From Cornus controversa (Eukaryota > Streptophyta > Magnoliopsida > Cornales > Cornaceae), in the NCBI GenBank assembly GCA_026545225.1, contig CM048850.1, positions 25,098,297-25,162,296 of the forward strand: a stretch of DNA of 64,000 bases, given 5' to 3'. Shown in pieces: positions 1 to 56,662 of the stretch. Within the stretch, counting starts at the first letter, position 1. Every line of letters begins with the position of its first letter. Below the pieces are notes generated by a model that saw only the letters and a list, made by a program, of their open reading frames with translations, was not told where the DNA came from and ran no database searches. Both the position numbers and the translations under genes were made by a program.

Positions 1-653
1 ATGATTGTTGCAGGAAGATTGATGGGATCCTCTCGAACAATATGATATAGTAGCTCGGCTCGACTCTTGATCAAATTACCTTTATGATCATGAGGATCAA
101 GGTTGTAGGAGACCACCAAATTTAATGCCGACACATTGTGTGTGATATAAAGTGAAGGCAACCTATCAACAAGTCTAGGGGCATTGGGTATGCATAACTC
201 CCTAATCATGTCATCCATGGTTGGTCGATTTGGATCCTCAATTTGATATGGCAAAACTAAGCCATTTTCAATCTCTGGGACTCCCAATATATTGGCAATT
301 ATATCCTTGGTAACCTCAACCCGAACACCATAACATTTGGTCACAAAAGTGAGGTCATCCAGGCTCGATGTAATGATATTACCATAGAAATATCGAACCA
401 TGTCCGGCTTGACAATCTCCCGAAGATCACATAGAGACTCCCAACCATTATCCTCAAAATATTGCACAAAATCCAATTCCCATTCTTGTTTAATCGCCAC
501 AAGATTCACTTTCCTTTCTATCCTCATAGCTCGACATCCAATGATGTTTATGAAAGTGTTGTAGTTAAAATCATCTTCAAACATGTTTCTAGTAAACACA
601 ATTCGATTATCTGCACTTGTGGACGCATCATTTCGTCCCCGTTTGCGTGCCAT
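1..653 (-). CDS. Extra ORF of Cop-A, 'putative plant transposon protein'-like, partial
   Basis: Reading the minus strand from the ATG at 653, the frame stays open for 217 codons to the window edge, so the C-terminus is missing. The N-terminus is basic (MARKRGRND). The body contains a W-x-x-F-type segment followed by PDMVRYFYGNI and, about 40 residues later, DIIANILGVPEIENG. The same pattern is present in the extra ORFs of Ath-3 (23448-24670) and Ath-5 (40170-41293). It resembles the Pfam-style 'putative plant transposon protein' domain of unknown function; I judge this by eye. The pyrimidine-rich tract and palindrome array at 855-1100 lie just upstream in sense direction. The absence of stops suggests a young copy. 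Function is unknown; a DNA-binding role is only a hypothesis. Confidence 0.7.
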   Translation of the reverse strand, partial: MARKRGRNDASTSADNRIVFTRNMFEDDFNYNTFINIIGCRAMRIERKVNLVAIKQEWELDFVQYFEDNGWESLCDLREIVKPDMVRYFYGNIITSSLDDLTFVTKCYGVRVEVTKDIIANILGVPEIENGLVLPYQIEDPNRPTMDDMIRELCIPNAPRLVDRLPSLYITHNVSALNLVVSYNLDPHDHKGNLIKSRAELLYHIVREDPINLPATI

Positions 654-854
654 TAACACCACAATGAATGGGATCAAAAATATAGACAAGAGTTCCATTG
701 AGACTTTTTGTCGAACACTTTGTGTGCAAGTCTTTAAACCTCAATTTTCAAAACAATTTATTTGCACAATTTCTCCCAAATCAATACTCAATCAACCCAA
801 ACTCCAAAAGTTCAATCCCAACCTCCAATATCAATCAATCACAAAGAAATTTAG

Positions 855-945
855 ATGAAGAGAAATGTGTGTGAGTTGGAGTGTTTTTAAGAGAGTTTGA
901 GAGAGAGTGAGATATGAGTGTGTGTGCTTGTGAGAGTGAATGAGG
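855..945 (-). promoter_or_regulatory. Pyrimidine-rich leader before the extra ORF of Cop-A
   Basis: On the minus strand this is a run of CT/CA repeats (plus strand reads GAGAGAGTGAGATATGAGTG-like). It lies between the palindrome array (1001-1100) and the ATG at 653. Ath-1 (15190-15290) and Ath-5 (39755-39835) have a CT tract in the same relative place. Plant core promoters often carry such Y-patches near the start site, so an internal promoter is possible. No experimental support. Confidence 0.35.
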
Positions 946-1000
946 GATTTTAAGCCAAAACGCGCGCGCGCAGAATCAACATTCTGGGCATTCGCTAAGT

Positions 1001-1100
1001 GCGACCGGTCCTCATATTTGGGGACCGGTCCAACTTCTTTCTGTTCCTCAGAACCTGCAGAAGTGCGACCAGTGCTCAATAATGGGGACCGGTCCAACTT
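1001..1100. repeat. Palindrome array GGACCGGTCC (Cop-A internal copy)
   Basis: Perfect or near-perfect GGACCGGTCC dyads occur at 1003-1011, 1022-1031 and 1086-1095, with a degenerate copy near 1066-1076. Pairs are separated by an AT-rich spacer ending TGGG. The segment AACCTGCAGAA sits between pairs. The same dyad, spacer style and AACCTGCAGA occur in the LTR of this element (5229-5320). Confidence 0.85.
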
Positions 1101-1110
1101 TGTGAATTAT

Positions 1111-2238
1111 GAAAAATTACACTTTGGACCTTTAATTCACCAAAAACACATATTTTTAATCTGATTTAGCAATTTAGCACATAAGGAGTGAAAAATAAAC
1201 ACAAAATCAAAATAAACATATTTTTGAATTTTTTGAAATTTTTCAAGAGAAAAAAAATAACACTAAAACATGAATAATCTCATGAGAATAATCAAAACAC
1301 ATTTTTCAGAGAATAACATGAGTTCTAAAATTTCTGAACAATTTCAATTAGTTATAAATGCAGAATTTTAAAACCCATAGATTGTCTTTAAAATTCATTC
1401 TCAAGTTCATGATCATGACACAACTTCCAACACACAAATATTTATAAAAATTTAGAAATTCATCTAATAAATCCATGTGTGTGTGCGCAATCCAACTTCA
1501 TCAAAAATTAATCAAATTCCTTTGATTCATCATCTAAAACATATTGGATAATAAGCAAATATAACTCCACAAGATCCATCATTTATTTTTTTTTCTTTTT
1601 CTAAGACGGTGGCTTTCACTCTTACGGGCAGCCAGCTATTTTCCTCAAAACAACTCTTTAAATTTTTAAAGATATCTCATTGGAGATTTATATTGTAGTG
1701 GAAGCTACGAACACATCCCGAAGGTAGCCTTTTTCCTTTTGTCTTAGATATTCAGCAAATTTCCTATTTTCTTTTTCTTTTCATGCTGAATAAAAACATA
1801 TAATTTTTTTTTTATTTTTTATTTTTTTTTCATTGATCATTTAAGCTTTCAATGCTACTCATACAATATATTCTAGTCAACTTCACATTAGTTTTCAATC
1901 AATTCTCTCAGAGTTGGACTAGTGCACAAATTGTATGGACTCAGAAGATTTACCTCTAAAAAGAAATAAATAAAGCATATTGGTCATCAATGTTTAGATC
2001 ATAAAATCAAGTACTTCATTCATTGACAAGCTGAGTGTCCCAATTATGCATTCACAAATTAAAGTGAAATTAAAAAGAAATATAAGGAAATCACATCATT
2101 TCTCAGAAAAATATAATTATCATAATCTCATATGATTATTACTAAAAATAAACAAAACCTAACCAAAAAAAACATGGTCCAATGGAAAACAAATAATGAA
2201 CAGAAGCTCAATCCATGACCATCAAAGTCCTAAAAGAC
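1111..2238. other. Noncoding spacer of Cop-A between gag and the internal palindrome array
   Basis: This is AT-rich with no open frame of note. It lies where pol would be expected downstream of gag on the minus strand, and I see no integrase, RT or RNase H motifs. It contains several T- or A-runs (1585-1605, 1805-1830) and a more complex patch at 1600-1750 that I do not recognise. Confidence 0.6.
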
Positions 2239-5103: not shown

Positions 5104-5228
5104 CAAGGAAGTCCTAATTCTACTTGGAAAAGAAGTTAAATACCAAAATAGAACTTTCCTAGAAGTTTCAAACCCAATAGGAATCAGAATTTTCGTCAAA
5201 ATTTATTTCCTATTTGGAATAGGCTAAG

Positions 5229-5320
5229 TTGGACCGGTGGGACTTTTTGAAAACCTGCAGAACCTATCTTCCCGAGAAAAGTTGGACCGGTCCTAAATAT
5301 TGGGGACCGGTCCTACTTTG
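5229..5320. repeat. Palindrome array GGACCGGTCC (Cop-A LTR copy)
   Basis: GGACCGGT at 5231-5238 and perfect GGACCGGTCC at 5284-5293 and 5304-5313. The pair is joined by TAAATATTGG, close to the internal-copy spacer at 1012-1021. AACCTGCAGAA is again present between units (5251-5261). Confidence 0.85.
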
Positions 5321-14935: not shown

Positions 14936-15154
14936 TTTCGATGCATCAAAGTCCATACTTCGATGCATTGCAGCTTCGATGCATCGACATTAGCGTCGAT
15001 GCATCGATCTTTAAATGTCCCATTTTTCTGCCAATTTCAGCAGCCTCCACACCTTGTGTCAATAGATAGTCGTGCATCGTTAGTTTCGATGCATCGAAAC
15101 ATTTAGTTCGATGCATCAACAGTGACTATGCATCAAAGTAGCCACTTTGATGAT
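14936..15154. repeat. Palindrome array CTTCGATGCATCGAAG (Ath-1 internal copy)
   Basis: At least seven units around GATGCATC: 14936-14950, 14957-14970, 14974-14988, 14995-15010, 15083-15099, 15107-15119 and a decayed one near 15127-15138. Several are perfect TTCGATGCATCGA dyads. The same 16-mer palindrome is perfect in the LTR of this element at 32380-32395. Confidence 0.85.
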
Positions 15155-15189
15155 CGCACCAAGGCACGTGACTGAGTATGCAGTCACTT

Positions 15190-15291
15190 AATATTTGAAC
15201 TCTCTCTCTTCTCTCCCTCCCATTTCTCCCCCTCTCTCTCGCGACTCTCTCTTTTCTCTCTCTCGACTCTCTCTTTTCTCTCTCTCATCCG
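15190..15291 (+). promoter_or_regulatory. CT-rich tract after the Ath-1 internal array
   Basis: About 100 bp of CTCTCTCTTTTCTC-type sequence, preceded by GCAGTCACTTAATATTTG (15181-15198). Ath-5 has GCAGTCACTTATATTT and a CT tract in the same place. Possible TATA-like plus initiator of an internal promoter; inferred only. Confidence 0.4.
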
Positions 15292-17353: not shown

Positions 17354-18853
17354 TGATAAGCAATGAATATTGCATATTCAATGCCCCTAAAATTATATAA
17401 ATTAGTGTCTTAGTAATATTTCTTTTATGTTTTTATTAATAATTTTAATCTTTTTATGATTTCAGGTGATTAAGGGTAATTTCGATTAATAATGGTGCAA
17501 TCGGGCTAGAGATTGCGCTCATTTAGTAAGAAGCTGAAGCTTCACCCATGAGTGATATGTTTATATTGAAGATTCAAACTAAATGGACTGAAGAAATGGG
17601 CTGGAAATGAATTTAAATGAAAAAAGGAGCATGGGCCTATTTACATTGAAGATTGGGTCAATTTAGGCTTAAAAAGTTCTGCACCCGTCCGTACACGATT
17701 GTCAAAACGACCCAAACTCCGTAAAAATTAAAAAAATTTAAATTATGTACAATTTCATATTTGTCAAAAGTTTCCTAAAACGGACGTTTATAGCAACTTT
17801 CTACCCTATTTGCGCAGCTACCACTTTTTGGGCGCAAATGACACTTTTTGAGGCGCATGTGCCTTTTTCTTATGCGCACTTGCCACTTTGGGAAGCCAGG
17901 TGTCTCATGTGTGTTTTCTTCGCAAAGTGAAAGGGGAGAAAAGAGGGAAAATTAGGTATTCTAGAGAGAAAAAACACGAAGATATAGACAGAGGCGATAT
18001 CGTGACGATACGGGCAAGAAGATGGCAATTTCATCATTGTTCAAGCCTGGAACTCCGATCATGAGCGGCTAATACATCATTCTGGGGAAGTGACGTAACC
18101 CTAACCTGTATTTCAATATTGTAAATTATATATTAATTTGGGGATGATTTAATTTGTGCATTGATTGTATAACCAAGACATAAACAATAGTTGTGCTGTT
18201 GATTTTAATTTGAATAGATTATTTCATTGCATATTTACTCTTGTTCTTGTAGAATGAATGCAAATTTGTAGTGATTAGGGTTTGGTTCTTTTCAACTTTT
18301 GTGATTTTGTTAATATAGGTTGTACAATAGTTTTCACTGATCTTTCAATTTATAGTTTTGATAATTCGTACTAAGCAAAGATGGGTTATCATATCATTAG
18401 TTAGTCAGATGTACAGGCCATGCTAAGTGAAAATGAGCTATGCTTAATTATATAATGAACGAATCCTCTTGATAGAATTGAATTGGGCTTGTAGCCATTC
18501 TTTTCTGAATGCATAAATTAAACTTACCAAATTAGTACAATTTGTCATTGTCAGAGGTTAGTGGTGAAGTCAATCCTAAGACTCTCTCTCTCCAGTATCT
18601 ATCATTTATTTATGTCATTTAATTTTAGCACCTTAGAATTAAAAACAAACAAATTCTCTTCGAATTAAATTAGACAAGGTCTTGATAGCTTAACAATAAA
18701 ACAAACGCAGTCTTTGTGGGTTTGACCCCTACTCACCGCTTTACTAATTTTAGTAGAGTATTTGTAGGTTTTTATAAATTCTTTTTTTTGTCGAAGTGTA
18801 AAACAACGATGACATTATTACATATTATTTTATTGCATTTTGCACGTCGAACA
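17354..18853 (+). mobile_element. 5' LTR of Ath-2 (1500 bp)
   Basis: Starts TGATAAGCAATG and ends CGTCGAACA. It is near-identical to the LTR at 30733-32188 and related to 33667-35186 (minus). The upstream part holds direct repeats of TGCGCA/GCGCAAATGCCACTTTTTG (17812-17895) where other elements carry palindrome arrays. AAATGGTGCC follows. Confidence 0.9.
17812..17895. repeat. TGCGCA / TGCCACTTTTTG direct repeats in the Ath-2 LTR
   Basis: Three to four imperfect units of about 21-25 bp combining the small palindrome TGCGCA or GCGCA with TGCCACTTTTTG. Also at 31147-31222 (other LTR) and 34624-34710 (Ath-4, minus). Confidence 0.65.
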
Positions 18854-18856
18854 AAA

Positions 18857-18874
18857 TGGTGCCATTGCAGAGGA
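18857..18874 (+). other. Primer-binding site of Ath-2 (tRNA-Asp type, degenerate)
   Basis: TGGTGCCATTGCAGAGGA, 3 bp after the LTR, resembles the tRNA-Asp site TGGCGCCGTTGCCGGGGA with a few changes. Confidence 0.7.
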
Positions 18875-19206
18875 CTGCGGTCATAACTGCGTTGTTAAGT
18901 TTAAGGATTAAGTCTAGTTTAATTATAAGTTAGGACTTGTATATATTCTATTTTTAATTTTTTTTGTGTTTTGTGTGTTTGAATATAGGTACAAGAGCTA
19001 CTACACAAGTGGAAAGAAGTTGAAATTTCGGGACCTCTTGTGAGTTTTTGTGTTTTAATTCATGCACTTATGTCTAGGATTGTTAGTTTATTTTAATTTT
19101 GAATTTTTTTTTATTTTAATTTTTTTGAAACATGTTGGTTGAGTTGGAAGACACTTTGGAAGCATGTTTGGATTAATTTGGTTGTGATATTAATAATTTT
19201 GCATAT

Positions 19207-19860
19207 ATGAAAATTTTGAGTGAAAATTCAATGGATGTGTCCAATAAATTGGATGCATTATCATGGAGATTGGACCAATTTATAGCCTCTAGTTATGTTA
19301 CTACTCCTCCTCACTTGTCCATACCATATGAGTCATGTGCATGTTGCTTTAGTCATTTTCATCATGTGATAGATTGTTCTACTTTGGGACAATATTATTA
19401 TTTTTATCAAGAGCAAGCACATGCAAATTTTTCTATACCGGGAGATGATCCATTTTCCCATACTTATTCTCCGGGATTTGAGGATAAAGTTTTGGCTGCA
19501 CTTGGCAGGCTTGATGAACAAACTAAATTGTTAAATTCACATTCACAATCAATAGTTAGGCTAGAAGTTCAAATGGAGCAAATAGCCAATGTTTTGAATT
19601 GTGAAGATCAAAAGGAACTTCCAAGTCAGCCTGTGACTAATATTGAACTCATACAACCAATTGATTTAGACCATGCCCCCTTTGTGGAACCATTACTAAT
19701 ACCGGACTCTGAAACTTTACATGAAGAACTTAAGTGTGATCACTTAAGTCCTAATGAGAGTCCACCTTTTACCTTGGTTTTTGACTTGGGTAGTGACAAA
19801 TTAGATATGAATGAGAAAATTAGTCAAGAACAAGTTAAAGGGTCATGTTTTCCTGAATAG
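19207..19860 (+). CDS. Gag C-terminal half of Ath-2, intact frame
   Basis: A 217-codon open frame that covers only the nucleocapsid side of an Athila-type gag. It has a CCHC-like knuckle CACCFSHFHHVIDC (about 48-61). A conserved segment follows (FEDKVLAALGRLDEQTKLLN at about 90-110, then a heptad-like SIVRLEVQMEQIANVLN) that matches Ath-1 gag at 13565-13680. The capsid core (FLKKYFP, CPHH) is absent: the ~350 bp between primer site and ATG hold only a leader. The frame is unbroken although the element has no pol. Either selection on a short protein or chance could explain this. A short non-autonomous element is the simplest reading. Confidence 0.75.
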   Translation: MKILSENSMDVSNKLDALSWRLDQFIASSYVTTPPHLSIPYESCACCFSHFHHVIDCSTLGQYYYFYQEQAHANFSIPGDDPFSHTYSPGFEDKVLAALGRLDEQTKLLNSHSQSIVRLEVQMEQIANVLNCEDQKELPSQPVTNIELIQPIDLDHAPFVEPLLIPDSETLHEELKCDHLSPNESPPFTLVFDLGSDKLDMNEKISQEQVKGSCFPE

Positions 19861-20248
19861 GTCGAATTTTATTCGATTGATTTATTTTTCTTAAAACCTC
19901 ACATTGGTATAGATAATACGTGCCTAAAAATTGTTTGGATTTTGACACAAGAAAGTGAGGACAAAATAGGGGGGGCACTCTTAGATCTCCTCAAAATATG
20001 TGGTATAGGGTGAACCTTCCATCAAAAGTAGTAGTTAGGGAGTGTGTGTTTTTCTTTTCATTTATTTTTACTTATTTTTTCTTTTGTTTGAGTTAATTTT
20101 TCTTCGTTTTAATTTTTATTTGTGTTTGTTTTTCATTTTGTTGCATTCTATTTTATTTATTTATTTATTTTTTCCTTTTAATATGCATGATATGTAATTG
20201 TGTTTTTTATGACAGGTTCTTGCATCCAAGTTTGGGGGGATGGCCAAC
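19861..20248 (+). other. 3' internal region of Ath-2, first part
   Basis: Noncoding. It contains GTGAGGACAAAATAGGGGGG and TTCTTGCATCCAAGTTTGGG, both found inverted in Ath-4 at 36835 and 36560. It stops at 20248, where Ath-3 is inserted; the rest is at ~29605-30732. Confidence 0.75.
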
Positions 20249-21120
20249 TGATGTGGTTGAAACTTGAATTATATTGTAAGCTTATTTTTGCCCCTTTTAT
20301 CAAAATATAATTTAACCACTCACAAGAGCACGAATCTTTGTAGACACGGTTCTATATAGAAGGTATCGATCCCACGAGGACTAGTCGTAATTATCTTAAA
20401 GAAAGATTACTTTTACTTTAATCCTACAAACAAGATTTTGAGTTTTGTTTAAAAAACTATTGCATGAATGTAATAACAATAAATTTAAAGAGTAAAAGTT
20501 GGGAGAGAGAGAACTAGGGGTGGTTTCCACCACTAGCCATTCACATGTTTATAAGTGTAGCAAGTTTGGGATTCATAAGTTAAATGCCTAACAATGTCAT
20601 TAGGCTTGTGACCTCAATGACATATCAAAAGATTAATGTGAGCACCAACCTATCATAATCCATCTTCAACAAGCATAGTTCTTTAACCTAACTAATTACC
20701 CTACTTTCTAAGTGAACCTACATGCATCCAAACTACCTTATCTTGGCATAGTTTATACAAGCAAGCACACCACATACATTTAAAGTACCATTACTTAGCC
20801 ATCATTTGCCCTTCTTGTGAAAGAAACAAATGTTGTACATTCACAAGATAGATTCTACTCTAAGACAAGAATAAAATCAAAATCAAATGAATATATAAAA
20901 GAGATGTATTAGTGTACATGGTCACTAGGCTAAATAATCAACATTTAAGAATAAATCCCAAAATGCTACAACAATGAACAAGTTTACATGGTTAGGGCTT
21001 CAACAACACCCTAGTATAGAAGTTAGTTGCTCATGGTTGCCTTGCACTCTTCCATTGATGAAGAAAATGGAGCTTCAAGGTCTGGTTCAGCTCCTTCTTC
21101 TCCTCTCCCGAATGTCTCTC

Positions 21121-21130
21121 TTTATATAAT
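21121..21130 (-). promoter_or_regulatory. TATA box of the Ath-3 LTR
   Basis: Minus strand ATTATATAAA followed by GAGAGAC. It lies about 230 bp downstream of the palindrome array in sense direction. Confidence 0.6.
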
Positions 21131-21360
21131 CTGATGTGTGTGAGAGATTTGTGAGAAATGGCTTCTTTTTGTGCTTTATGGCCACCTTTTCAACCTTGGG
21201 GCCCACCATATATATATATGTATCAATATATATACCAACTTTATCAAGAAGGTCCCCAAAGGTCTTGTTCAAGTCAGACAATCCCTCTAAATCGTGCAAA
21301 AAGGGGGATTTTGTTGCAAGTGGGAGAGCAGGTGAGCAAGTGGGCAAGTGGCTCTGCAGA

Positions 21361-21478
21361 ATCTCGATCAATCGAGATTGAATCTCGATTGATCGAGATT
21401 TCGATCAATCGAAGCAAGATCTCGATCAATCGAGATCTTGATTGATCGAGATCATCATCTCGATTGATCGAGATGCCT
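21361..21478. repeat. Palindrome array ATCTCGATYRATCGAGAT (Ath-3 LTR copy)
   Basis: Six to seven units in 118 bp, with core TCGATCAATCGA or its complement and outer arms often extended to ATCTCGAT...ATCGAGAT. One unit (21416-21441) has 12-bp arms around a CA centre. The same dyad recurs at 25387-25690 in the interior of this element. Confidence 0.9.
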
Positions 21479-21657
21479 TAGCTGCAATTCTGACTTTCTC
21501 TTCAGCTGTAAATAGCCTCAACCTTTGCTCCTTTTACTACAAGACCTGCAATACATTAAAAACACAAAAATACCGTAAACATATCTCGATAAACGTAGAA
21601 ATGGGACTAACATATGCAATAAAGAGGGTTTAAATGCATAGAATTGAACACTTATCA

Positions 21658-21670
21658 CACCCCCAAACTT
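21658..21670 (-). other. Polypurine tract of Ath-3
   Basis: Minus strand AAGTTTGGGGGTG next to the LTR start. Confidence 0.8.
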
Positions 21671-23447
21671 ACATATTGCTAGTCCCTTAGCAATGCAATA
21701 TTACAAAAATAAAATTAACTATCTTATACAAAAATTTAATCATGCTCAGTCATCATTAGATAAAGGACGATCATCTGTTCATTTCACATTTGGCAAATGC
21801 AACAAGTATTACAGAACTATGCAGTCATTAGTAAAAATGGACTTTCACAAGCTATAAATAACTGACGGTCCCCACATAATGGCCAGTCCGAACAAACATA
21901 CCGACCCCGATCCTAAAATCCTCTTTGAAAAGTGAACATGCATTCTAACGCGCGACTTTGTCATATTTGGAGAAGAATAAGAACAAATCTATTTTTAAAA
22001 GAAAAACTCCTTGCAATGGCTCAACACTGTTGTTCATTATCACAAAACATTCATGATTGCTCATGTGCGGATGACCGTGCAATGCTTAACTCTTTTTGCT
22101 TTCTTGCAAGCCCATGTAGCGGCATTGGGCTAATGACTCCCAAACCAATTAGTTTTAGGGCATTAGGTGAAGAAACACCCCTCGGACTTAATAACCGAGC
22201 TTATAAGGCGATGAGCTTAAGCAAGCCACCCATTTATTATTGCTCAACCTTGCACACTTATACGCGAATACTCCCTACTTTGTGGCATAGAGATCCAGTT
22301 TATTGAGTGAGAAGGCTTATTGCATATACTTTATAATAATTTTTTTTTACAACAACCGGAAGAATTTGTTCTTTAAGTTGTTCGAATAAAAATAGAGATT
22401 TATAAAATTCTCCATCAGATTTATACCCCACAATTTAAAATGCATGTGTGCAAATTTGTGCGGTTAAGGACAAATTTAGGGCAAGAACTGTACGTGCTCA
22501 TATTTGGACAAAAATGTAGACTGTTCTAGCCTATTACGTAGCTTGCAAAAGTGCGGGCATTTACAATGTTAAATTTCTTAACTACCTGTTGCATTTATCT
22601 CGGACATTTATTCGAATGATCTTCCTTTAAAAAGCAAGACATCATAGCAAGCATGCAAAAATATCAAGGAAAGAAACTTGCTCTATAATGACAATCAATA
22701 CAAAGACTGAACATTGCATGCATATGCAAGTGGTATAGCATACCGCACCCCCAAACTTAGACGCAACATTGTCCTCAATGTTTGGACAAGAAGAGCAAGG
22801 AAAAAATTTACCGGGATGGCAGAACGCGATAAAAATGGCAGTCCAATACCGGCGGTCATGCTGGGAATGAGAAAAACCTGCACGGAACACCAACTAGATA
22901 CCACGAGCATTAAATGAAACAAAAAGTAGATAAAAAGAATATAATCAAAGAATTATGGACAAGCGGATATTGCCAAGATCACTACATATCCAAGGCTCTG
23001 AACTGGTGTTTCCCAATTGACTAAGAGGTCTATGCAATAAGATATTGACTATCCAGGCACGCTAACGTATAGCATGCAAAGGGGCAACCTTTCTTTATTA
23101 ATGTCATACTACATTGAAACAATCTCAACAGTATCGAGAATTGAAACCAAGCGGTAATAAATGGAAATCATCAACTGAATCGCATATAACAATTACGCAA
23201 GTGGTACTACATATATAGTCAAAGTAGAGAGAGAGCATTGATATTGGCAGAAAGTAAAAATAAAGATAAAAAATAGAACACATGGTATAAAAGAAAGGAG
23301 AACTGTATTCCATATATGTGAACATAAGTTTCAGTACAAAGGGTACATGGATGTGGAATACACAAAAACTAATATGGCCAACATGGCCTATCAAAAATAA
23401 AGAAAGAAAAATATAGATAGTAAAACAGAAAGTGCAAATAGATAGAT
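21671..23447 (-). other. Conserved 3' noncoding region of Ath-3
   Basis: Carries the same landmarks as in Ath-1 and Ath-5, inverted: CCTCTTTGAAAAGTGAACAT (21921), the AATGACTCCC...GGGCATTAGG block (22133-22165) and the dyad with G-tract at 22746-22781. Confidence 0.7.
22746..22781 (-). promoter_or_regulatory. Conserved dyad plus internal G-tract, Ath-3
   Basis: Plus strand ACATTGTCCTCAATGT (22766-22781) is a perfect 6-bp-arm dyad, with CACCCCCAAACTT at 22746-22758. Confidence 0.75.
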
Positions 23448-24670
23448 CTACTGGAGGGCGGGTGGTGGTGGTGGTGGCTCGGTGGGAGTAGAGGTGGAGG
23501 TGGAAGCTCGTCCTGCAAACAGGAACTGCAGGTCCTGTCGGAAGGCCCGGAACTCGTCTAAAATCACCCTCTGACCCTGTGCCAGAGATGAAATGTCCGA
23601 TCTAATGCCCTCCAGCTGACTCTGCGTCACCTGGACGTGCTCCTCAAAACTGTGCTGGAACCGCTCAATGTCAGCTGCCAGACAGGAATATCCAGTCGCT
23701 AGGATGTCATGCTACTCGGCAGCAATATCCATCTCATCCGCCTCCATCTCCTCCTCAGATGACTCACCCTCTGCAGGCTCACCCTCATCCATCTCCACTG
23801 GGGCATCCATGTCTACATCCTCTGGTGGATCGCCCTGTTGGTCCTATCGCTCCAAGTGTTGCCTCACCCTCTTCGACTGAGCAGGTGCGAAGCGGGTGGG
23901 CGGTGCCAACTGAACGTCAGTATCACTGACCGGTATACTGGCATGACTTAGGAAAGCGGCGACGAGTAAAGGAAAGGGAAGCCGCCAACTCGCTGCTCGC
24001 CTCATCCTCTTATTGACAAGGCCATCCCAGATCTTGAACATCTGCCCCCATATCAGCGCCGGGACAGAAAACCATGTGCCCGTGTGGAAAGCGTAAAGGC
24101 AACGGAGGAGGTCGCCTCTGCGCTCTACCACATGCTGTAGAGGACACGCGTTTTTGATCAGAACGTTGTCCAGGAACCATAATCTACTCGGGCACATCGA
24201 TTTGGACGTGCAGTTGTGACTGGGCGTGGTAAACGCCCCGCCACACATGTCCATCATGATGGAAAATAAGGTCGTGTCTGCCGGGAACTCGGGCCTGTAA
24301 AGCGGTCGACCATCCTGGTCAACCATATCTGGAGGCTGCTGTGAGGAATCCCGAGCATCTGTGCGATCCGGCTCAGAGTGATAGTAATCGTCACGCTACC
24401 TACAACCGTCTCCAATGTGTCCGGCTCGGTGCAGGAATAGGTCATGCGCTCCTAAAAGACCTACACCAAGCACTTGTGTGCCACATCAGTGGGCGGCACA
24501 CATAACCGGTCAAGGCGACGCCTTTTAAGCTCTGCTACAACCCATGAGTAGTCAGGGCACATCTCAAACTCTTTCAGCTCAAATATCTGCTCCGGGTGAA
24601 ACTTTCGTGTCCGGAAGGCTCGCCCGGGCACGTCTCTAACAGCACCGGGGGCGTTCTTCACACGCGCCAT
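23448..24670 (-). pseudogene. Extra ORF (post-pol) of Ath-3, broken
   Basis: Starts MARVKNAPGAVRDVPGRAFR (24670). It continues to KCLV, two TAG stops, then MTYSCTEPDTLETVV and ITLSRIAQMLGIP. After a frameshift near 24300 it shows SKSMCPSRLWFLDNVLI, HVVERRGDLLRCLYAFHTGT and a VPALIWGQMFKIW segment. The C-terminal part is acidic (DVDMDAPVEMDEGEP), then coiled-coil-like (LEGIRSDISSLAQGQRVILD), and ends with a Pro run. The family matches Ath-5 40170-41293 and, in its first half, Cop-A 1-653. It sits where Athila-type elements keep an env-like ORF, but I see no signal peptide or membrane segment. The four in-frame stops are all TAG. Function unknown. Confidence 0.75.
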
Positions 24671-25386
24671 GGACCCAAAATAGTCTGCACTTATTCCAAA
24701 AATTAAGTAAATAAAAAGAAAATAGAGAGAATTCTAAACTAAGAATAAAAATTAAAAAGGAGGTTCTAGTCCATGGTGTTGACACATGCATTCCAACATA
24801 CGTTCGAATTGACTTGATGAGGTGAACTAGGAAGCAAAAATAACCCATATGAATATGAATATGTCTCTCATCTCACTCTCAACGAAGCAGTGCAAGCGGC
24901 TGCACCCGAACAATGGGCCGCAGTTGCAAACCGCTTGTAAAGCATTCAATACAAAAACAAAAAAAAATGTGCAAAATCTCTCACCCATATATTCGATCCT
25001 ACCCCCGAAACTCGCAAAATCCCATTATGAACATAGCGAATGCACCATTCCACCCAACATCACCGGTCTATGCTTATTACACCGAGAAACTAACAAAAAT
25101 AGCGAGAAAGGAAGCAAAATATAGCCATGTATCACTTACCTCAAGGTGAAGATGATGATCGGCACAAAAAGATGAAGACCCAACTCGCAGCCGCGAAGAG
25201 ATGAGCGTGCGCTTGCTCGTGGAGACCTCATACTATGGTGAACAGCGCGAGATGGTCGGGAATGGTAGATCAAGTGTGGGACGGTGCTCTGGGATGCTTT
25301 GGATTGCTCAGAGAAGAGAAGGAAGTCGGATTGTCTTTTAAAATGAGAGGGAACTCTAACGGTTTAAATAAGTATTCGGCTCACGT
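24671..25386 (-). promoter_or_regulatory. Leader between internal array and extra ORF, Ath-3
   Basis: About 700 bp without a real gene. On the minus strand it has TTATTTAAAC (25370-25361, TATA-like), then a C/T-rich stretch (CCTCTCATT..., CTTCCTTCTCTTCTCTG at 25348-25310). An internal promoter for the extra ORF is an inference. Confidence 0.35.
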
Positions 25387-25690
25387 GCAGGCATCGAGTC
25401 AATCTTGATTGATAGAGATGCACATCTCGATCAATCGAAATCCTACCTCGATCAATCAAGATCAACTTTGATCAATCGAGATTTCACTTCGATCAATCGA
25501 GAATTCACTTCGATCAATCGAGATTTCGATTGATCGAGGACTTATCGAAGTGCTATTGAAGAATACTACCTCTCAGAAATTTGGACTTAGCAAACTCTCT
25601 GCATTATTTTGATCAATCGAGACCACAATCTCAATCAATCAAAATCGGGATCTCTGCTTCGATCAATCGAGATGCTCAAAAATAGCCAGC
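25387..25690. repeat. Palindrome array TCGATCAATCGA (Ath-3 internal copy)
   Basis: About ten units over 300 bp, most reading TTCGATCAATCGAGA or close variants. The array is tight at 25430-25540 and looser after 25600. Same dyad as in this element's LTR (21361-21478). Confidence 0.9.
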
Positions 25691-25839
25691 TTAAGTTATA
25701 CTTCATGGACTTGGACTTATGGGCCTTAGATACTAAATTGCTTAGATAAAAAATTTACCTTGGATTAAAGGGACATCATGAAAGCATGATTGCTACCATG
25801 GCCTTGCCACCTTACACGTCTATGGCATGACGTCCGAAT

Positions 25840-26470
25840 CAGCTCACGAGTCAAAATACACGGGATCCATCAAGGTGACGACATCCATGTATTCCGTGGT
25901 AACTTAGTCATCCACGCACAATTTTAAACGCTGCCCGTTTACTTTGAACAACGATCCATCTTTCAAGTCCTTCAATTCCACCGCTCCGTGGGGAGCAACG
26001 GAATTAACCAAAAATGGACCATCCCAACGGGAGCAAAGTTTTTCGGGAAACAAAGGGAGACGCGAATTGTACAATCATACTTTTTGGCCCGAGGAAAACA
26101 TTTTGACTCGAATGTTGCCATCATAAAAGGCTTTTGCCTTTGCCTTATAGATTTTAGCGTTTTCATATGCATCATATCGCAATTCTTCCAATTCATTTAA
26201 TTGAAGCTTCCGATTAGATCCGGCCATTTGCATGTTAAAATTGAAAGTTTTGGTGGCCCACATAGCTTTGTGCTCCAATTCAACCGGAAGATGACACGCT
26301 TTACCATAAACCAACCGGTAAGGTGACATTCCAATGGGAGTCTTATAAGCAGTTCGGTAAGCCCATAATGCATCATTTAGTTGCAATGACCAATCTTTCC
26401 AGTCATGCCGAACTATTTTCTCAAGAATGTTCTTAACCTCCCTATTGGATACCTCCACTTGGCCACTAGT
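25840..26470 (-). pseudogene. Integrase C-terminal part of Ath-3
   Basis: Follows the integrase core in sense. It reads [15 protein letters not shown] and [20 protein letters not shown] (26458-26360), then a KVLLFDSRLRLF segment and [20 protein letters not shown] near 25980. This is the usual gypsy integrase tail that contacts DNA and chromatin. It ends with a YMDVVTLMDP-like segment near 25860. A TAA at 26471-26473 separates it from the core, in the same frame. Confidence 0.8.
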
Positions 26471-30732: not shown

Positions 30733-32188
30733 TGATAAGTAATGAATATTGCATATTCAATGCCCCTAAAATTATATGAATTAGTGTCTTAGTAATATTT
30801 CTTTCATATTTTGATTAATAATTTTAATCTTTTTATGATTTCAGGTGATTAAAGGTAATTCTGATTACTAATGGTGAAATCGGGCTACAAATGGTGCTCA
30901 TTTAGTAAGAAGCTGAAGCTTGACCCATGAGAGATATATTTATATTGAAGATCCAAACTAAATGGATTGAAAAAATGGGTTGGAAATGAATTTAAATGAA
31001 GAAAAGGAGCACGGGCCTATTCACATTGAAGATTGGGCCAATTTAGGCTTAAAAAATTTTGGACCCATTTACAGCAATTCTGTATAATTTTATATTTCAC
31101 AAAAATTTTCTAAAACGGACGTTTATAGCAACTTTCTGCCCTATTTGCGCAGCTGCCACTTTTTGGACACAAATGCCACTTTTTGAGGCGCATGTGCCTT
31201 TTTCTTATGCACACTTGCCACTTTGGGAGGCCAGGTGTCCCGTGTGTGTTTTCTCTGCAAAGTAAAAGGGAGAAAAGAGGGAAAACTAGGTATTCTAGAG
31301 AGAAGAAATAAGAAGATATAGACAGAGGCAATTCGTGACAATACGGGCAGGAAGATGACGATTTCATCATCGTTCAAGCGAGGACCTCCGATCATGAGTT
31401 TCTAATACATCATTCTGGGAAAGTGACGTAACCCTAACCTGTATTTCAATGTTGTAAATTGTATATTAATTTGGGGATGATTTAATTTATGCATTGATTG
31501 TATAACCAAGACATAAACAATAGTTGTGCTGTTGATTTTAATTTGAATAGATTATTTCATTGCATATTTACTCTTGTTCTTGTAGAATGAATGCAAATTT
31601 GTAGTGATTAAGGTTTTGTTCCTTTCAACTTTTGTGATTTTGTTAATACAGGTTATACAATAGTTTTCTCTGATCGTTCAATTTATAGTTTTGATAAATC
31701 GTACTAAGCAAAGATGGGTTATCATATCATTAGTTAGTCAGATGTACAGGCTATGCTAAGTGAAGACCAGTTACACTTAATTGTATGTTAAACGAATCCT
31801 CTTGATAGAATTGAATTAGGCTTGTAGCTATTTTTTTCTGAATGCATAAATTAGACATCCCAAATTAGTACAGTTTGTCATTGTCAGAGGTTAGTGGTGA
31901 AGTCAATTCCGTGGACTCTCTGTATCCAGTATCTATCATTTATTTATGTCATTTAATTTTAGCGCCTTAGAGTTAAAAACAAACAAATTCTCTTCGAATT
32001 AAATTAGACAAGGTCTTGATAGCTTAACAACAAAACAAACGCAGTCTTTATGGGTTCGACCCCTACTCACCACTTAACTAATTTTAGTAGAGTATTTGTA
32101 CGTTTTTATAAATTTTTTTTTTTTGTTGAAGTGTAAAACAACAGTGAGATTATTACATATTATTTTATTAGATTTTGCACGTCAAACA
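30733..32188 (+). mobile_element. 3' LTR of Ath-2 (1456 bp)
   Basis: Near-identical over its length to 17354-18853. Ends GCACGTCAAACA. It is followed by CTTAG (32189-32193), the same 5 bp that precede the 5' LTR, so the pair delimits one insertion. Confidence 0.93.
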
Positions 32189-33517
32189 CTTAGAATGTGG
32201 CGTAATTCGACTCCTTTATTAGGTCAACAATGCATTTCGAATTCCAATCATCCTTCATGGAGAATCTACACAAAGGAATAGCGAATGGCGTGTCAAGACC
32301 GGAGTTAAAAAAGTTAGAAAGATGAAGATCTGCAGAAGGAGGATCGGCGCATCGAAGTAGACATTTCGATGTATCGTAGCTTCGATGCATCGAAGTCCCT
32401 ACTTCGAAGCATCGCCCGAACCTGTTGAAGATATTTTTTAACAAATATTTTCTCCACTTGCCACTTGTCTAATTTTGCTTGGATAAAACCTTGCATGAAA
32501 TTTCTATGTTATTTTGAGCCTCTGATCAGTTATATAGCTAGAGAGTATGTAATAAAAAGATATGCACAATTCTTATAATAGAGAGCATATTTTAGAATTC
32601 TAGAGAGAAAAAGCAAAGTTTTAGAGAGGGAAAGCTTCAAAGAGGGCTTTCCAAAGCCTTGAAGACCATTTTGAGCATGGGACCATCTCTATCTATGGAG
32701 TGCTTCCAGCACACTATGATTAACTAATCCTTCTCTAGGGTTTTGACAAACCCTAGCCTTATAAATATGTTCTAACTTCAATGAATTGGGAATTTTTATG
32801 TATTTTGTGTATATGTCTTTTGCCTTGAGCCTTATATAAATATAAGTTTACAAATTCTTTATGTTCATGTGTTGTGATTTATCTTCTTGTTTTGGAATGT
32901 TTAAATCCCTCACATGATCTTCAAACACTTGTAAGTTTCACAAGAACTACAAGTGATGGCTTGAGACTAGTTTTCACTATAACATGCATAGCTAGATTTG
33001 CATAGTCCATGCTTAGAGAAGGTGATTTTGCTTTAATTAGGTAAGTAAGTAGGTAGGGAAATCATGTGACAATGATTTTACTACAAGTAGGTAATTAGGT
33101 AAAAAAGAAAAACTACGCTTTTCGAAGATGGATTATAGTATATTAAGGTATGTGTATTCTCTTAACGATGTTGTTGTAGGTGGGACTTTTCAACGCTTCA
33201 TTAGTACACATTTGCATGAATTCCCCCAATTCATTATAAGTGTGACACACTACGAGGTTAGCGGGGAAGTCTAACCCTAATCCTTATTTATTCTCTCAAC
33301 CCTTGTATTTAAATTACTTTCATGCTTTCAAAGTAAAGTAAGTAGACAACCAACATGGTTGTGATTTAAACAAGAACCAACCCTCAACCTTTAGTGAGTT
33401 ATACCTACGTAGTCTCTGTGGGATCAACACCCTCAACTTAGAGCCCTATCCTTCAAGGATTCGTTCTATTGCGAGTGGTAAATTTATAAATTGCGAGTAG
33501 CGCAACCACACACAACA
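32189..33517 (+). mobile_element. 3' LTR of Ath-1, second part
   Basis: Continues 17353 after the Ath-2 insertion. It aligns by eye along its length with the Ath-5 LTR (43165-44428): GAGAGGGAAAGCTTCAAA, AAGCCTTGAAGACCAT, ATGGAGTGCTTC, CTAACTCCTTCTCTAGGGTT-type blocks, and GAGCCCTATCCT near the end. Its palindrome array (32344-32416) differs in sequence from that of Ath-5. TATA-like TTATATAGC at 32530-32538. Confidence 0.85.
32344..32416. repeat. Palindrome array CTTCGATGCATCGAAG (Ath-1 LTR copy)
   Basis: One perfect 16-bp palindrome at 32380-32395, with variants at 32348-32356, 32364-32377 and 32401-32414. Same dyad as the Ath-1 internal array at 14936-15154. Confidence 0.85.
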
Positions 33518-39566: not shown

Positions 39567-39715
39567 AATTATGATGTATCGTAAGTTCAATGTCGATGTA
39601 TCGTAATGACTATGCATTATAATTTAAGCCCCTAATTTGAGTTCAAATCCAGAGCATTTCGCACCTTATTTTACAAGATGGTGACGCATCGTAACATGCA
39701 TTACGATACATCACC
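39567..39715. repeat. Palindrome array TTACGATGCATCGTAA (Ath-5 internal copy)
   Basis: Units at 39567-39584, 39592-39608, 39609-39622 and an overlapping pair at 39681-39712 (GACGCATCGTAACATGCATT, then ACGATACATC). Decayed but clearly the same dyad as the LTR array at 43312-43372. Confidence 0.8.
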
Positions 39716-39734
39716 AGACACACATGACTGCACA

Positions 39735-39835
39735 TGCAGTCACTTATATTTTTTAATTGCTCTCACTCCCTCTCATTTTTTTCTCTCTCTCTCATAACCA
39801 AACTCTCACTCTTTCTCTTAGTTGAAACTCCTTAT
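39735..39835 (+). promoter_or_regulatory. TATA-like word and CT tract after the Ath-5 internal array
   Basis: GCAGTCACTTATATTTTTT at 39734-39753 followed by CTCTCACTCCCTCTC and TCTCTCTCTCTCAT. Same arrangement as Ath-1. Inferred internal promoter. Confidence 0.4.
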
Positions 39836-40169: not shown

Positions 40170-41293
40170 TGGTCCAGGCAAAGGCTCCATCTGCTCCCAT
40201 TCGTGATGTCCCGAGAGGCAAGTAGGGGAATGGGATATCCACCCCAAGCATGTCGTGGATAGGGACACTTTTATTGAGGATCCAAATGCCACGTGCTCCC
40301 TTTGAGCTTTGGAAGAGCGTCGTTTACTCGGGCTCCTTACAACCGCTTTTGACATTGCCTACCCCCAACTCATTTGCGTGTTCTATATGAACATAACCTA
40401 TGATTGCAACGAGTCGAGCACCTTACGGACCATTATCTATGACACTCCTCTTGCCTTTATAGTGGAGGATATAGCCACACTTACTAGGTTTCCACATAGG
40501 GAATCCGAAGATCTTTATGATGTAGAGGACCACTACCATTTCTGTGAGCTCTATCTGAGACTTATAATTTTCAAAATGATTCATGACATGTGCCATAACA
40601 GATTAAGCAACCCGAAGAATAACTGCACAAGAAAATCCATTTGCCCCCAACGCTTGTGGTTCTTTAACACGATGTTCCAAAAAAATGCCCACCCTTTGAG
40701 GCATAGTACTGAGCATCCAAGAGAGTTTTTGACAGTGCCGTATGCCCCCAATTTTGGCAGTTGGTTCTCCATCCTGGAAGTTATTTGGGGCCATATACAC
40801 AAAGTATGGGAGCAACTGGATGCCAAAAATAACTCGAAAGTTTCTAACTTGAAGTTGTCATTTCCTTATTTGGTGACTACTATGCTTAGGAAGATGAGCT
40901 CTAGTTTTAGACTTCTGAGATTTCCAGTGGCACTCCTCCCCACTTTACACTCTAGAGTTGGAGCAAGATGGTCTCTCATATGAGTACACTTCCCCGTGTA
41001 GCTCGAGAGAGAAAGGAGAGTGAGAGTGACCATGAGGCGTCTAAGGATGATGCCATGGACATGGACATCCCTACTATTGACTATATTCCATCCGAGGATA
41101 TATCGGATGAGGCTGAGGATGAGCATGAGATGTCCAGGATGGGCAGAGCTGATTATGAGTATCTCGTAGTTGGTTATGAGTGCCTAACTTCCGACCTTTC
41201 ATAGTTACAGCTGGACTTTGCGGATCATTGTAGAGAGACCATTGAGAGCCTGGACACTATGAGTGCCAGCATTAGAGCTATTTTAGATTAACA
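40170..41293 (+). pseudogene. Extra ORF (post-pol) of Ath-5, broken
   Basis: ATG at 40170 gives MVQAKAPSAPIRDVPRGK then a stop, close to the Ath-3 start (MARVKNAPGAVRDVPGR). After a frameshift, 40309-40983 is open for 224 codons: LICVFYMNITYDCNESSTLR, AFIVEDIATLTRFPHRESED, NCTRKSICPQRLWFFNTMFQ and WFSILEVIWGHIHKVWEQL. Another shift leads to an acidic segment (KDDAMDMDIPTIDYIPSEDI) and a helical end. Domain order matches Ath-3: basic start, central domain, acidic linker, coiled-coil-like tail. No membrane segments, so not an obvious Env. Function unknown. Confidence 0.8.
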
Positions 41294-45904: not shown

Positions 45905-46011
45905 GGCAATCGATTGCCTTTAAAAATGGAGCAGTCTCCTTTTAGGCTGATGCCAAAATTTTACTTTCTCAATAGGGTGATCGATCACCTTTAAAAGGCG
46001 ATCAGTCGCCT
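45905..46011. repeat. Palindrome array GGYRATCGATYRCC (block E1)
   Basis: Perfect 14-bp palindromes GGCAATCGATTGCC (45905-45918) and GGTGATCGATCACC (45976-45989), plus AGGCGATCAGTCGCCT (45996-46011). Units are followed by TTTAAAA. Confidence 0.85.
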
Positions 46012-46434
46012 AGACAGAAGTTAAAATATTTCTATCAAGTTCTCAATTCTCATTCTCCAGGCAATCAAACTCATTCATGACTCAATAAAATCAATACATA
46101 ACATACCCAATGAGGGAAAACATCATTGTTCAATAATCAAGCAGAATAAACATTCGAATTACATTCGTCTTAAAAGGGAATCAACGTGTTCAAAATATAC
46201 AGTAATCGCAAAAGATAATCATAATGTCACTACATTTATAGGGGAAAATTAAGGGGAACAAAGCATTTACAAAATACACTTGCCCACAATTCTAGAGATA
46301 CTTGTTCCTCAATAAATTTCCAACTTTTTCTCTAAATAACCAAACATGGCTTACAACCTAAAAATAACAAAAGTTCTAAAATGTGCTATGTGTCCAAAGC
46401 GCACATAAGTACCTCCAATATCATTCTCCTTCTC

Positions 46435-54811: not shown

Positions 54812-55278
54812 TTATAAATCATCATTGAAGGTTATGATATAACCTTTGTTTGCCAACTTTTCCACTGAAATTAGATTCTTCTTTAAGTCAGGGATGTGCC
54901 TAACATCTTTCAACTTCCACACATATCCATTTAATCTAATCTGCACCTTACCCTTGCCAACCACATTGCAAAGCTGATCATCACCAAGATACACCTTTCC
55001 AGATTACTCGATACATAGTTGTCAAATAACTCTCTACTTGAGGTAAAATGAAATGATGCCCAGGAGTCCAAAACCAAAAACTCTGCCTTGCGCCCCAAAT
55101 AGCATATCAACGCATCATCTGATTCTTCTGAGAAAATGTTTGCTTTAGTTTTATTCTCTATATCCTTTAATGGAGCTCCCCACTGGTTTTTATAATGTCT
55201 AACCTTGCCATAATTCCAACATTCAATTTCTTTCTCATTCTGATTTTGATTATTGGAGTTCCTGGGTTTCGAAACCAT
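54812..55278 (-). pseudogene. Cop-C: zinc knuckle, protease and pre-integrase
   Basis: The knuckle has lost key residues (ECWNYGKVRHYKNQW for CWNCGKxGHxKxxC). The protease motif reads LDSWASFHFT where the family has LDSGASxHMT, so the active-site Gly is lost. The GAG-pre-integrase part (YLGDDQLCNVVGKGKVQIRL, LKDVRHIPDLKKNLISVEKL) is well preserved. Confidence 0.85.
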
Positions 55279-55449
55279 GATCTGCCATTCTTTGACTTGG
55301 ATTTGCTATGTCTATTACCATTACCATTTTCTTGTTTGAACTTTTGTCCCTACTTTTTACATTCAATGTTGATCCAGAAGTGGAAACACCAACTGATGTC
55401 TCCTTTCTGATTTCCTCAGTCAGAATCATATTGACAACATCATCGAACT

Positions 55450-55950
55450 TTAATTTAGACTCCCTGCAGAACTATTGACTGTAGTAACTATGCCACTCCA
55501 ATTCTCAGGCAACTGCCCGAGAATTAGGAATGCTCGAATCTCATCATTGAAAGAGATTTCAACAGAGTCTAATTGATCTACAATTTCATTGAATTCATTC
55601 AGATATTCTCTAAACTTTTCACTTTCGGCCATATTCATAGTGAATAATTTCTTAATTAAATATACCCTCTTCGCTACAGATAGTTGTTCAAAAGGCTTCC
55701 ATGAGAGATGTTGTCATTTTCTCATTTTTTGTGTTAAAAGTGACTGATTTTGACAACATCAATCTGATCGTTGCAAAAGCCTTCCGATCATGTCTGATCC
55801 ATTCATCTTCTTTCATCTATCTTGGCTTCTTTCCAAGCGATAGGTCTAGCTCTTTCTCGATCAAATAGTCCTCTATCTGCATCTTCCAAAAACTAAAGTT
55901 TGTGCCATTAAACTTATCAATCTTAGATGTTTTCTCATCTGATGCCATTA
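55450..55950 (-). pseudogene. Cop-C: gag
   Basis: The ATG at 55950 (minus) gives MASDEKTSKIDKFNGTNF, then SFWKMQIEDYLIEKELDLSL. The later part LNEFNEIVDQLDSVEISFND and FLILGQLPENWSGIVTTVNS (55638-55450) is a UBN2-type copia gag. Stops and a frameshift separate the parts. Confidence 0.85.
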
Positions 55951-56038
55951 CTCCCACTCGAACAAATAGGTCAAACATGAAGAATGCCTCTCTAGAATTT
56001 TGTCAAACACCTTCTGTGCCCTAGGTTCTCCAACCAAA

Positions 56039-56050
56039 GCTCTGAGACCA
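56039..56050 (-). other. Primer-binding site of Cop-C
   Basis: Reverse complement TGGTCTCAGAGC, one base off the iMet-type TGGTATCAGAGC, 2 bp from the LTR. Confidence 0.8.
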
Positions 56051-56052
56051 AT

Positions 56053-56662
56053 TGTTGGGAATTAGGGAGGTATCATTCACTCTCTCTAATACCACCAGTT
56101 ACTGCGAATAAAATAAGAATAATCAAGAAAGATAAGAACAATCACCTAAGAAAAGAACAAACATATAAGAACACATAAGATTTATATGGTTTGGCTCCAC
56201 TCGGCCTACGTCCACGAAGTTGCAGGGATTTTTCACTATAATGGAGGAATGACACATCTTTGCTTTACAATCACCAATCACGCCCTCTGTGTGTGTACCT
56301 ATGTGTATCCCATACCCACAATGTTTGTCTTATCATAGTATTTATGTGCCCCAAGCCTTGGGCAACAAACAAGTGGAGAAAATACCAAAATAGCCAAAAA
56401 GAGTTGGATAAAAAAAACTTCGATCAATAGCCTTCGCAACTTCGATCGATTGAGCTATCAATCGAAAAAATTGCCTCTTCGATCGAAACTCTCTATGAAT
56501 GAAAGGCTTCCAAATTATGATCGATCGATAATTTTGGAATTCCAAAAAACTTCCAAAACTTTTTGTGATCGAAAGGCTTCAATTCTTAATCGATCTAACC
56601 TTTTGATCAATGATTTGCAAATAGCCAAAAATAGCATTTTCATGTCTTCCCTAATCCCAATA
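56053..56662 (-). mobile_element. 5' LTR of Cop-C (~610 bp)
   Basis: Edges TGTTGGGAATTAGGGA (56053) and TCCCTAATCCCAATA (56662) are inverted copies, the last CA having become TA. In sense: palindrome array (56613-56418), TATA-like ATAAATA (56345-56338), leader, primer site. The 3' LTR was not found. Confidence 0.75.
56418..56613. repeat. Palindrome array TTCGATCGATCGAA-like (Cop-C LTR)
   Basis: Units ACTTCGATCAAT (56418), ACTTCGATCGATTGAG (56439-56454), CTTCGATCGAAA (56477-56488), ATGATCGATCGATAA (56517-56531), TGTGATCGAAAGG and TTAATCGATCTA (56587-56598). Decayed. Confidence 0.7.

Follow-up and report, generated by a model that had tools for sequence, protein, structure and literature searches.

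Matching palindrome arrays in the LTRs and interiors of Athila and other retrotransposons of Cornus controversa as candidate operators of a dimeric DNA-binding protein

Palindromes shared by the long terminal repeat (LTR) and the interior of one retrotransposon are known from Sireviruses, and we describe here such paired arrays in Athila elements, whose pol is of the Ty3/gypsy type, and in other elements of a 64,000-nucleotide stretch of Cornus controversa DNA (contig CM048850.1, positions 25,098,297 to 25,162,296; hereafter the window), which is plant DNA with many nested LTR retrotransposons. In the parts of PMC2829016 consulted, 13 Sireviruses are described with palindromic boxes (RM boxes) in the LTR, upstream of the TATA box; these are CpG-rich, occur many times per element at 200-400 bp into the LTR, are termed Sirevirus-specific among the copia elements compared, and have a CGG-CCG core except in Tnd-1 (ACAATCGATTGT). 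The same box lies in the linker of nine ENV-bearing Sireviruses, with 77 of 79 copies upstream of ENV, and an internal promoter was proposed there. An earlier note on the window knew of no LTR/interior matching across superfamilies. For Sireviruses such matching was already on record; no such arrangement of palindromes or internal promoters in Athila or Tekay elements was found in the open-access literature, judged mainly by titles and abstracts. The paired palindromes of Athila and the arrays of chromovirus-like elements appear to be a new variation on the Sirevirus theme.

Set beside the RM boxes as far as the consulted text describes them, the arrays of the Athila families Ath-1, Ath-3, Ath-5 and Ath-6 are alike in being multi-copy LTR palindromes, at ~190-340 bp into the LTR, and in the recurrence of the same motif after pol, upstream of an open reading frame (ORF) in the position of ENV (this extra ORF was read in Ath-3 and Ath-5 of the window alone); Ath-7, with no array seen in its LTR, differs from the RM boxes in the first respect. 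The palindrome of an array, which we call its word, has the core CGATNNATCG in Athila and chromovirus-like elements and not CGG-CCG, although the arrays of a copia-type element (Cop-A) and of another element at 5.8 kb are closer to the CGG/CCG class. Further differences are the carriers, which are Athila Ty3/gypsy and chromovirus-like elements and not Ty1/copia Sireviruses, a 22/16-bp spacing rule, a parallel change of both arrays and a word common to several lineages.

Tnt1 and similar plant copia LTRs reportedly contain short U3 enhancer repeats, some of them symmetric, that drive transcription, and Grande, by the title of a reference, is a similar case of an element whose extra (accessory) gene reportedly has a promoter of its own and a nuclear product; we know of no palindrome arrays in Grande. 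The present arrays resemble the Tnt1-type enhancers as short U3 repeats but differ by their matching internal array, none being described in what was consulted on Tnt1 (a "box I of Tnt1" is mentioned in PMC2829016). The targets of VANC proteins, according to the part of PMC5735166 consulted, are short family-specific motifs such as YAGTATTAY; like our arrays they are dense short motifs in noncoding tandem repeats, and there they change with the trans-factor. They differ in belonging to VANDAL DNA transposons, in standing in one orientation and in having an identified protein, where we have a candidate binder only. Motif clusters in noncoding DNA are present here as well, but the Ath-1 word, for one, also occurs in another lineage and so is not family-specific. 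One maize palindrome is found in structured regions of both Copia and Helitron elements (PMC10760457, consulted part).

In the window, a de novo palindrome caller (12-mers allowing one mispair, with four or more G/C and three or more copies in 300 bp) returned 9 clusters, compared with a mean of 0.25 in 20 dinucleotide shuffles; clusters with at least 4 copies numbered 5, compared with 0 in the 20 shuffles. One cluster, at 7282, is AT-rich and was not counted as an array. The other 8, together with 4 arrays read by eye (Cop-A LTR, Ath-5 interior, Ath-5 LTR and 45.9 kb), reproduce the twelve arrays counted in the earlier note, the agreement being one of number and not item by item. Its claim that LTR and internal arrays match in Cop-A, Ath-1, Ath-3 and Ath-5 was also borne out, as each of the four pairs bears one palindrome at both sites (Table 1). 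The twelve arrays and the four matches are therefore confirmed as real. Across the entire window the CpG observed/expected ratio is 0.50. The six Athila arrays have values of 1.26-2.13 and the three copia arrays on the left of the window 0.40-0.67; the arrays at 45.9, 51.1 and 56.4 kb have 0.81, 1.49 and 1.98, respectively.

The four pairs are not equally secure. Cop-A is the weakest assignment because its extra ORF leaves the window; that its LTR and internal arrays belong to one element is suggested by shared motif, strand and order. As the two arrays share a ~40-bp double-palindrome unit, an old duplication is plausible. Cop-A copies are spaced 20 bp, and its gag is copia-type. The LTR array of Ath-1 is less visible because Ath-2 interrupts the 3' LTR, with CTTAG at 17349-17353 and 32189-32193 flanking the insertion (by eye), and a reading of Ath-1 as lacking an LTR array was dropped since the LTR is merely split. 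The Ath-5 pair has the caveat that its interior holds 1 copy by a stricter caller.

The matching extends to the 772-Mb assembly that holds the window (G000), where the junction of Athila polypurine tract (PPT) and LTR, TAAGTTTGGGGGTGTGATA, has 3780 occurrences (1849 + 1931) and its reversed control 0. We took 60 LTR pieces from the first 61 of 100 listed junctions, skipping C1:4645998 as nested, and counted an array wherever a word was present two or more times (exactly twice in L038 and L118). Results showed an array in 34 of the 60 pieces: 28 of Ath-3 type, 3 of Ath-6 (TTTCGATTGTGCGAAA), 2 of Ath-5 and 1 of Ath-1. The sample included internal pieces for 28 of these LTRs (those of L036, L061, L067, L116, L120 and L125 had none), and among them 21 carried the same type as the LTR, 7 carried no array within the piece (L050, L057, L058, L069, L091, L093, L146) and 0 carried a different word. 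L036 had been considered a decayed Ath-3, which was dropped as it bears the Ath-6 word, and L079, scored as a match, may be a nested LTR. It should be considered that 19 of the 39 internal pieces (13 + 6) were fetched once the LTR was known, at a distance set by type; the other 20 pairs were type-blind and contained 9 LTR arrays, 6 of them matched and 3 without internal array in the piece. Three further Athila copies, at loci picked for the Ath-1 word (L016, L019, L022), also match. These counts support a within-element matching that is real and wider than the four window pairs.

When two or more copies were required in LTR and interior alike (the strict caller; type labels were assigned by hand and not blind), both arrays were present in 28 of 53 pairs, a different set from the 28 above. 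The mean agreement between top 12-mers was 9.86 within elements and 8.80 between them, and 0 of 20,000 element shuffles reached the former value. Because copies of one family are not independent, we also pooled the array-bearing pieces, hand-sorted, into six lineages (Cop-A, Ath-1, Ath-3C, Ath-3T, Ath-5, Ath-6; Ath-7 was left out), and by 9-mer spectra the true pairing of LTR with interior was the best of 720 permutations. Ath-5 is the weakest lineage (0.39 with its own interior, 0.33 with that of Ath-1), and Ath-3T LTRs come near Ath-3C interiors (0.76 against 0.93). In this one genome, then, pairs match better than shuffled ones, which was the check proposed in the earlier note, and the explanation it had set against its own, that internal arrays are recent LTR fragments, fits Athila poorly: many copies have their internal array at the same location behind pol, and its layout is longer than that of the LTR array.

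LTR and interior also change in parallel. The subfamilies Ath-3C and Ath-3T differ at the outer pair of the palindrome at both sites (TCTCGAT..ATCGAGA and TTTCGAT..ATCGAAA, respectively). In an alignment of 16 + 6 LTR copies, which uses 16 of 22 Ath-3C pieces (L034, L035, L042, L045, L061 and L067 were dropped), fixed differences fell on 7 of 12 outer-pair columns, 6 of 254 columns outside palindromes, 0 of 60 core columns and 0 of 25 other flank columns. The corresponding figures in an alignment of 9 + 3 interiors (9 of 11 Ath-3C and 3 of 6 Ath-3T internal arrays) were 7 of 34, 12 of 420, 3 of 160 and 3 of 64. All 14 outer-pair differences are C/T at the left or G/A at the right, and the six 3T copies all have 3T interiors. 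Between families, the internal arrays of 5 Ath-1, 2 Ath-5 and 5 Ath-3 copies form a single alignable region, in which the flanks are common and the palindromes differ.

Adjacent copies in Athila arrays are mostly 16-17 or 20-22 bp apart, and spacings of 17 and 22 bp are also found in the Sirevirus-like LTR at 5.8 kb. Pairs of CGATGCATCG within 12-42 bp number 1171 in the genome, compared with 0 for the reversed pattern; among the 50 pairs listed, 28 have a spacing of 22 bp, 7 of 16-17 bp, 9 of 38 bp and the remaining 6 of 18, 20, 36, 39, 40 and 40 bp. The Ath-1 word TTCGATGCATCGAA has 1783 copies in the assembly (1 for the reversed-word control), and of 20 loci fetched for it 6 were Athila and 14 were not, as judged by DNA similarity to the window; in these 14 the commonest spacing is 22 or 16 bp. 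Ten of them match the window at 45.5-45.9 kb, four tested loci contain Ty3/gypsy domains (RVT_1 in L018 and L009, Integrase_H2C2 in L009, SH3_Tf2-1 in L018 and L027, gag in L013), and 3 of the 14 have an iMet-type primer site. The non-Athila loci tested thus appear to be chromovirus-like, most likely Tekay. For arrays not adjoining an Athila PPT we had considered a location in DNA transposons that have long inverted repeats, a reading dropped in view of the pol/gag domains and primer sites. The array can be placed inside the LTR with some safety only at L013, from primer site and LTR span, and, going by similarity, probably lies within the LTR at the other loci. As chromovirus-like loci share the Ath-1 word, the code is not strictly element-specific, contrary to the earlier note. 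TTACGATCGATCGTAA at 51.1 kb is similar to the Ath-5 word, and GGNGATCGATCNCC at 45.9 kb is more loosely similar to that of Ath-7.

TATA-like sites follow the internal arrays of Ath-1, Ath-3 and Ath-5 (Table 1). Of the 16 Ath-3 internal arrays scored, 14 have TATTTAAA beginning 35 bp past their last palindrome core (31 and 12 bp in the other two), and the sequence after it is 70-78% pyrimidine in those 14. The observed matching, the placement before two promoter-like sites, the spacing near two helical turns and the parallel change of a symmetric pair together make operators of a dimeric protein the best explanation, and we lean to the view that the arrays serve one such DNA-binding protein at two promoters of one element. 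One set would lie upstream of the U3 promoter in the LTR, which would drive the genomic RNA, and the other upstream of an additional promoter inside the element, between pol and the extra ORF. The palindrome would be the same at both sites because a single protein has to recognise each of them; if a lineage shifts its binding specificity, the palindromes would be replaced at both sites, with layout and spacing largely kept. The most likely binder would be a plant transcription-factor family with the common core CGATNNATCG, whose members differ in flanking bases, and the main alternative binder would be the product of the extra ORF itself. We favour the host family because unrelated chromovirus-like elements, a lineage that is not known to carry the extra ORF, use the Ath-1 word with the same spacing. 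An element-encoded dimeric protein or VANC-like factor is a possible but less probable binder.

Several observations weigh against such operators. One is Ath-7, whose internal word GGGCGATCGATCGCCC is present in 12 of the 17 copies recognised by an Ath-7 LTR or junction. The C1 sample contributes 7 of these among 10 copies, and another junction search 5 among 7; L085, assigned to Ath-7 by its junction and counted among the misses, has two copies of GCGATCAATCGC. In its LTR no array was found at about 130-480, nor in seven copies at 475-900, although a near-palindrome, TTTCGGGCCTGAA, occurs once or twice in the pieces, and in five Ath-7 pairs that the strict caller scores as having both arrays the weak LTR words mismatch the internal one (mean 3.2 of 12). 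Matching is therefore not universal: it is seen in the four window pairs and in 21 of 28 Athila copies, and Ath-7 is internal-only. With 26 of the 60 Athila LTR pieces also lacking an array, an array cannot be required at every promoter. Moreover, the non-independence of family copies leaves effectively about six lineages, the six 3T copies are probably one event, and 3C interior arrays are mixed at the outer pair, which leaves the co-switch less sharp there than in the LTR. In the 5 arrays of Ath-1, Ath-5 and Ath-6 that were scored, TATA-like matches are weaker and scattered (14-95 bp), and all figures for such matches are without a null. Repeat homogenisation could also produce the matching. 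Finally, we infer protein binding, promoter activity and the direction of control, and no word was matched to a transcription factor.

Repeat homogenisation, in its full form, would deny the arrays any regulatory role: slippage or template switching would make the palindromes, and recombination or gene conversion would homogenise LTR and interior without selection. Such an origin would suit the 37- and 41-bp tandem units inside the Ath-3 arrays, spacers such as GTACCCACTTCG common to the Ath-1 LTR (L019) and interior (L022) arrays, and the unit shared within Cop-A. We hold it improbable, as it leaves unexplained the 35-bp placement before TATTTAAA in Ath-3, the 22/16 spacing across unrelated lineages and the clustering of fixed differences at the symmetric outer pair, and as the Ath-7 internal array persists with no LTR donor seen. 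A role at the RNA level, in hairpins or kissing RNAs for dimer packaging or in small-RNA processing, seems very improbable. All 9 folded arrays have negative z scores against shuffles (-2.1 to -8.8), but folding is expected of any palindrome array. Sense-strand mispairs were 59 G.U, 85 A.C and 44 other (three internal pieces without arrays were omitted), with no G.U excess, so the arrays show no sign of the conserved RNA-level pairing of retroviral dimer initiation sites and the kissing role raised in the earlier note finds no support. The U3 array is also not near the 5' end of the genomic RNA, the usual place of dimer sites. Small RNAs are drawn to Sirevirus palindrome clusters in the consulted part of PMC10760457, and small-RNA matching may be a host response.

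An element-encoded reader deserves more weight than these, but we still doubt it: the extra ORF, PF20167-like, would make a DNA-binding activator or anti-silencing protein that reads the arrays of its own element, as VANC does. The internal array precedes this ORF, and the extra ORFs of gypsy (Athila) and copia (Cop-A) may be one family. Cop-A matches PF20167 at E 2.9e-16, and P0121, a database homologue with 80% identity to the Ath-3 extra ORF across 54% of that query, matches it at E 1e-4, which falls short of the family cut-off; a pairwise comparison gave E 4e-4 across 77 residues. Their homologues are few, 1 for Ath-3 at E 0.001 and 0 for Ath-5 at 1e-5, compared with 7964 of 8000 scored for pol at 1e-20, a scarcity that may also come from decayed query ORFs. 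Family-specific words that change together are as in the VANC targets (PMC5735166, consulted part), but VANC21 motifs are arrayed in a single orientation. Against an element-encoded factor stand also the chromovirus-like loci with the Ath-1 word and spacing, the Ath-5 ORF, which has no PF20167 match, and the P0121 structure model, in which no DNA-binding fold could be recognised and which is too poor for a fold search (mean predicted local distance difference test score 42.7).

Going beyond operators in single elements, we put forward only tentatively that superfamilies in one genome share a small lexicon of palindromic operators on a 22/16-bp grammar, with one word at both promoters, and that lineages change their words jointly and coevolve with a trans-factor dedicated to them, which may be the Transposase_32-type, VANC-like protein of the internally promoted ORF. 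If the operator reading is true, matched arrays would indicate that a second promoter is controlled in the same way as the LTR, and parallel switching would allow cis-trans coevolution in retrotransposons to be followed from sequence alone; the words, their spacing and their positions are defined precisely enough to be tested directly. The arrays also bear on the expression and role of the plant gypsy extra ORF. For Sireviruses these are discussed in the consulted part of PMC2829016.

Table 1. Palindrome arrays, TATA-like sites and associated features, with positions in the window.
Feature	Position	Strand	Remarks
Cop-A extra ORF	3..740	-	Pfam Transposase_32 (PF20167); downstream of internal array; runs off window
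Cop-A internal array GGACCGGTCC	998..1098	-	upstream of extra ORF
Cop-A 5' LTR array GGACCGGTCC	5222..5320	-	primer-binding site/LTR border ~4391 by eye
Sirevirus-like LTR array TTTCAGNCGACTGAAA	5740..5994	-	copy spacings 17, 22, 22, 43, 22, 22, 22, 48, 22
Ath-1 internal array CTTCGATGCATCGAAG	14938..15137	+	de novo caller and comparison with genomic copies
TATA-like TTAATATTT after Ath-1 internal array	15188..15196	+	by eye; weak match, without null; then CT-rich leader
Ath-2	17354..32188	+	nested in Ath-1 3' LTR, itself interrupted by Ath-3
Ath-3 3' LTR array CTCGATYRATCGAG, six copies	21362..21473	-	de novo caller
Ath-3 extra ORF region, two frames	23847..24733	-	PF20167-like
TATA-like TTATTTAAAC after Ath-3 internal array	25363..25370	-	by eye and genomic copies
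Ath-3 internal array CTCGATYRATCGAG	25400..25681	-	between pol and extra ORF
Ath-3 pol	26078..29399	-	protease, reverse transcriptase/RNase H, integrase
Ath-1 3' LTR array CTTCGATGCATCGAAG	32344..32415	+	LTR = 17233-17353 plus 32194-33518, split by Ath-2
Ath-5 internal array, TTACGATGCATCGTAA-like, degenerate	39571..39721	+	by eye and comparison
TATA-like TTATATTT after Ath-5 internal array	39744..39751	+	by eye, without null
Ath-5 extra ORF	40306..40980	+	similar to that of Ath-3, 34% identity
Ath-5 3' LTR array TTACGATGCATCGTAA	43312..43378	+	by eye and comparison
Array GGNGATCGATCNCC	45905..46012	-	adjoins chromovirus-like LTR fragment; inside or just outside that LTR
Array TTACGATCGATCGTAA	51130..51312	-	probably within chromovirus-like LTR
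Array, CTTCGATCGATTGA-like	56418..56600	-	presumed 5' LTR of copia element

For the Sirevirus-like element at 5.8 kb no internal array was called in the window. Runs of CTCCCCCT at 6660-7030, which are AGGGGGAG on the minus strand, were read as multiple PPTs of this element, a Sirevirus feature according to the part of PMC2829016 consulted. No palindrome array was called in the LTR of Ath-2 or in the part of its interior present in the window; the LTR bears a direct repeat, GCGCANNTGCCAC, and not a palindrome array. The Ath-2/Ath-4 LTRs at 17810-17890 and 34620-34717 contain GCGCANNTGCCACTTT, a direct repeat with a spacing of ~21-22 bp that is not a true palindrome.

Scans for relatives outside the genome returned none among viral contigs. 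Among genome contigs they returned three contaminants that look like plant DNA (L001-L003), in which neither an array was called nor the exact PPT word found. Two of these, filed as bacterial (L001, NZ_QPKJ02000021.1; L002, NZ_JABGCL010000066.1), hold a plant-type Ty3/gypsy pol at 70% identity and are probably plant contamination. Within the window, 52823-53215 is similar to locus L010, and 44626-45512 consists of ~318-bp units in tandem, whose terminal repeats are ~250 bp long (TGTAGTAACCC...GGGGTATTACA), with TTGGTATCAGAGC after them, an arrangement that resembles a tandem terminal-repeat retrotransposon in miniature (TRIM). Of the 20 ORFs scanned, the sole host-type gene is at 62714-63340 and encodes a PMEI (invertase/pectin methylesterase inhibitor) domain.

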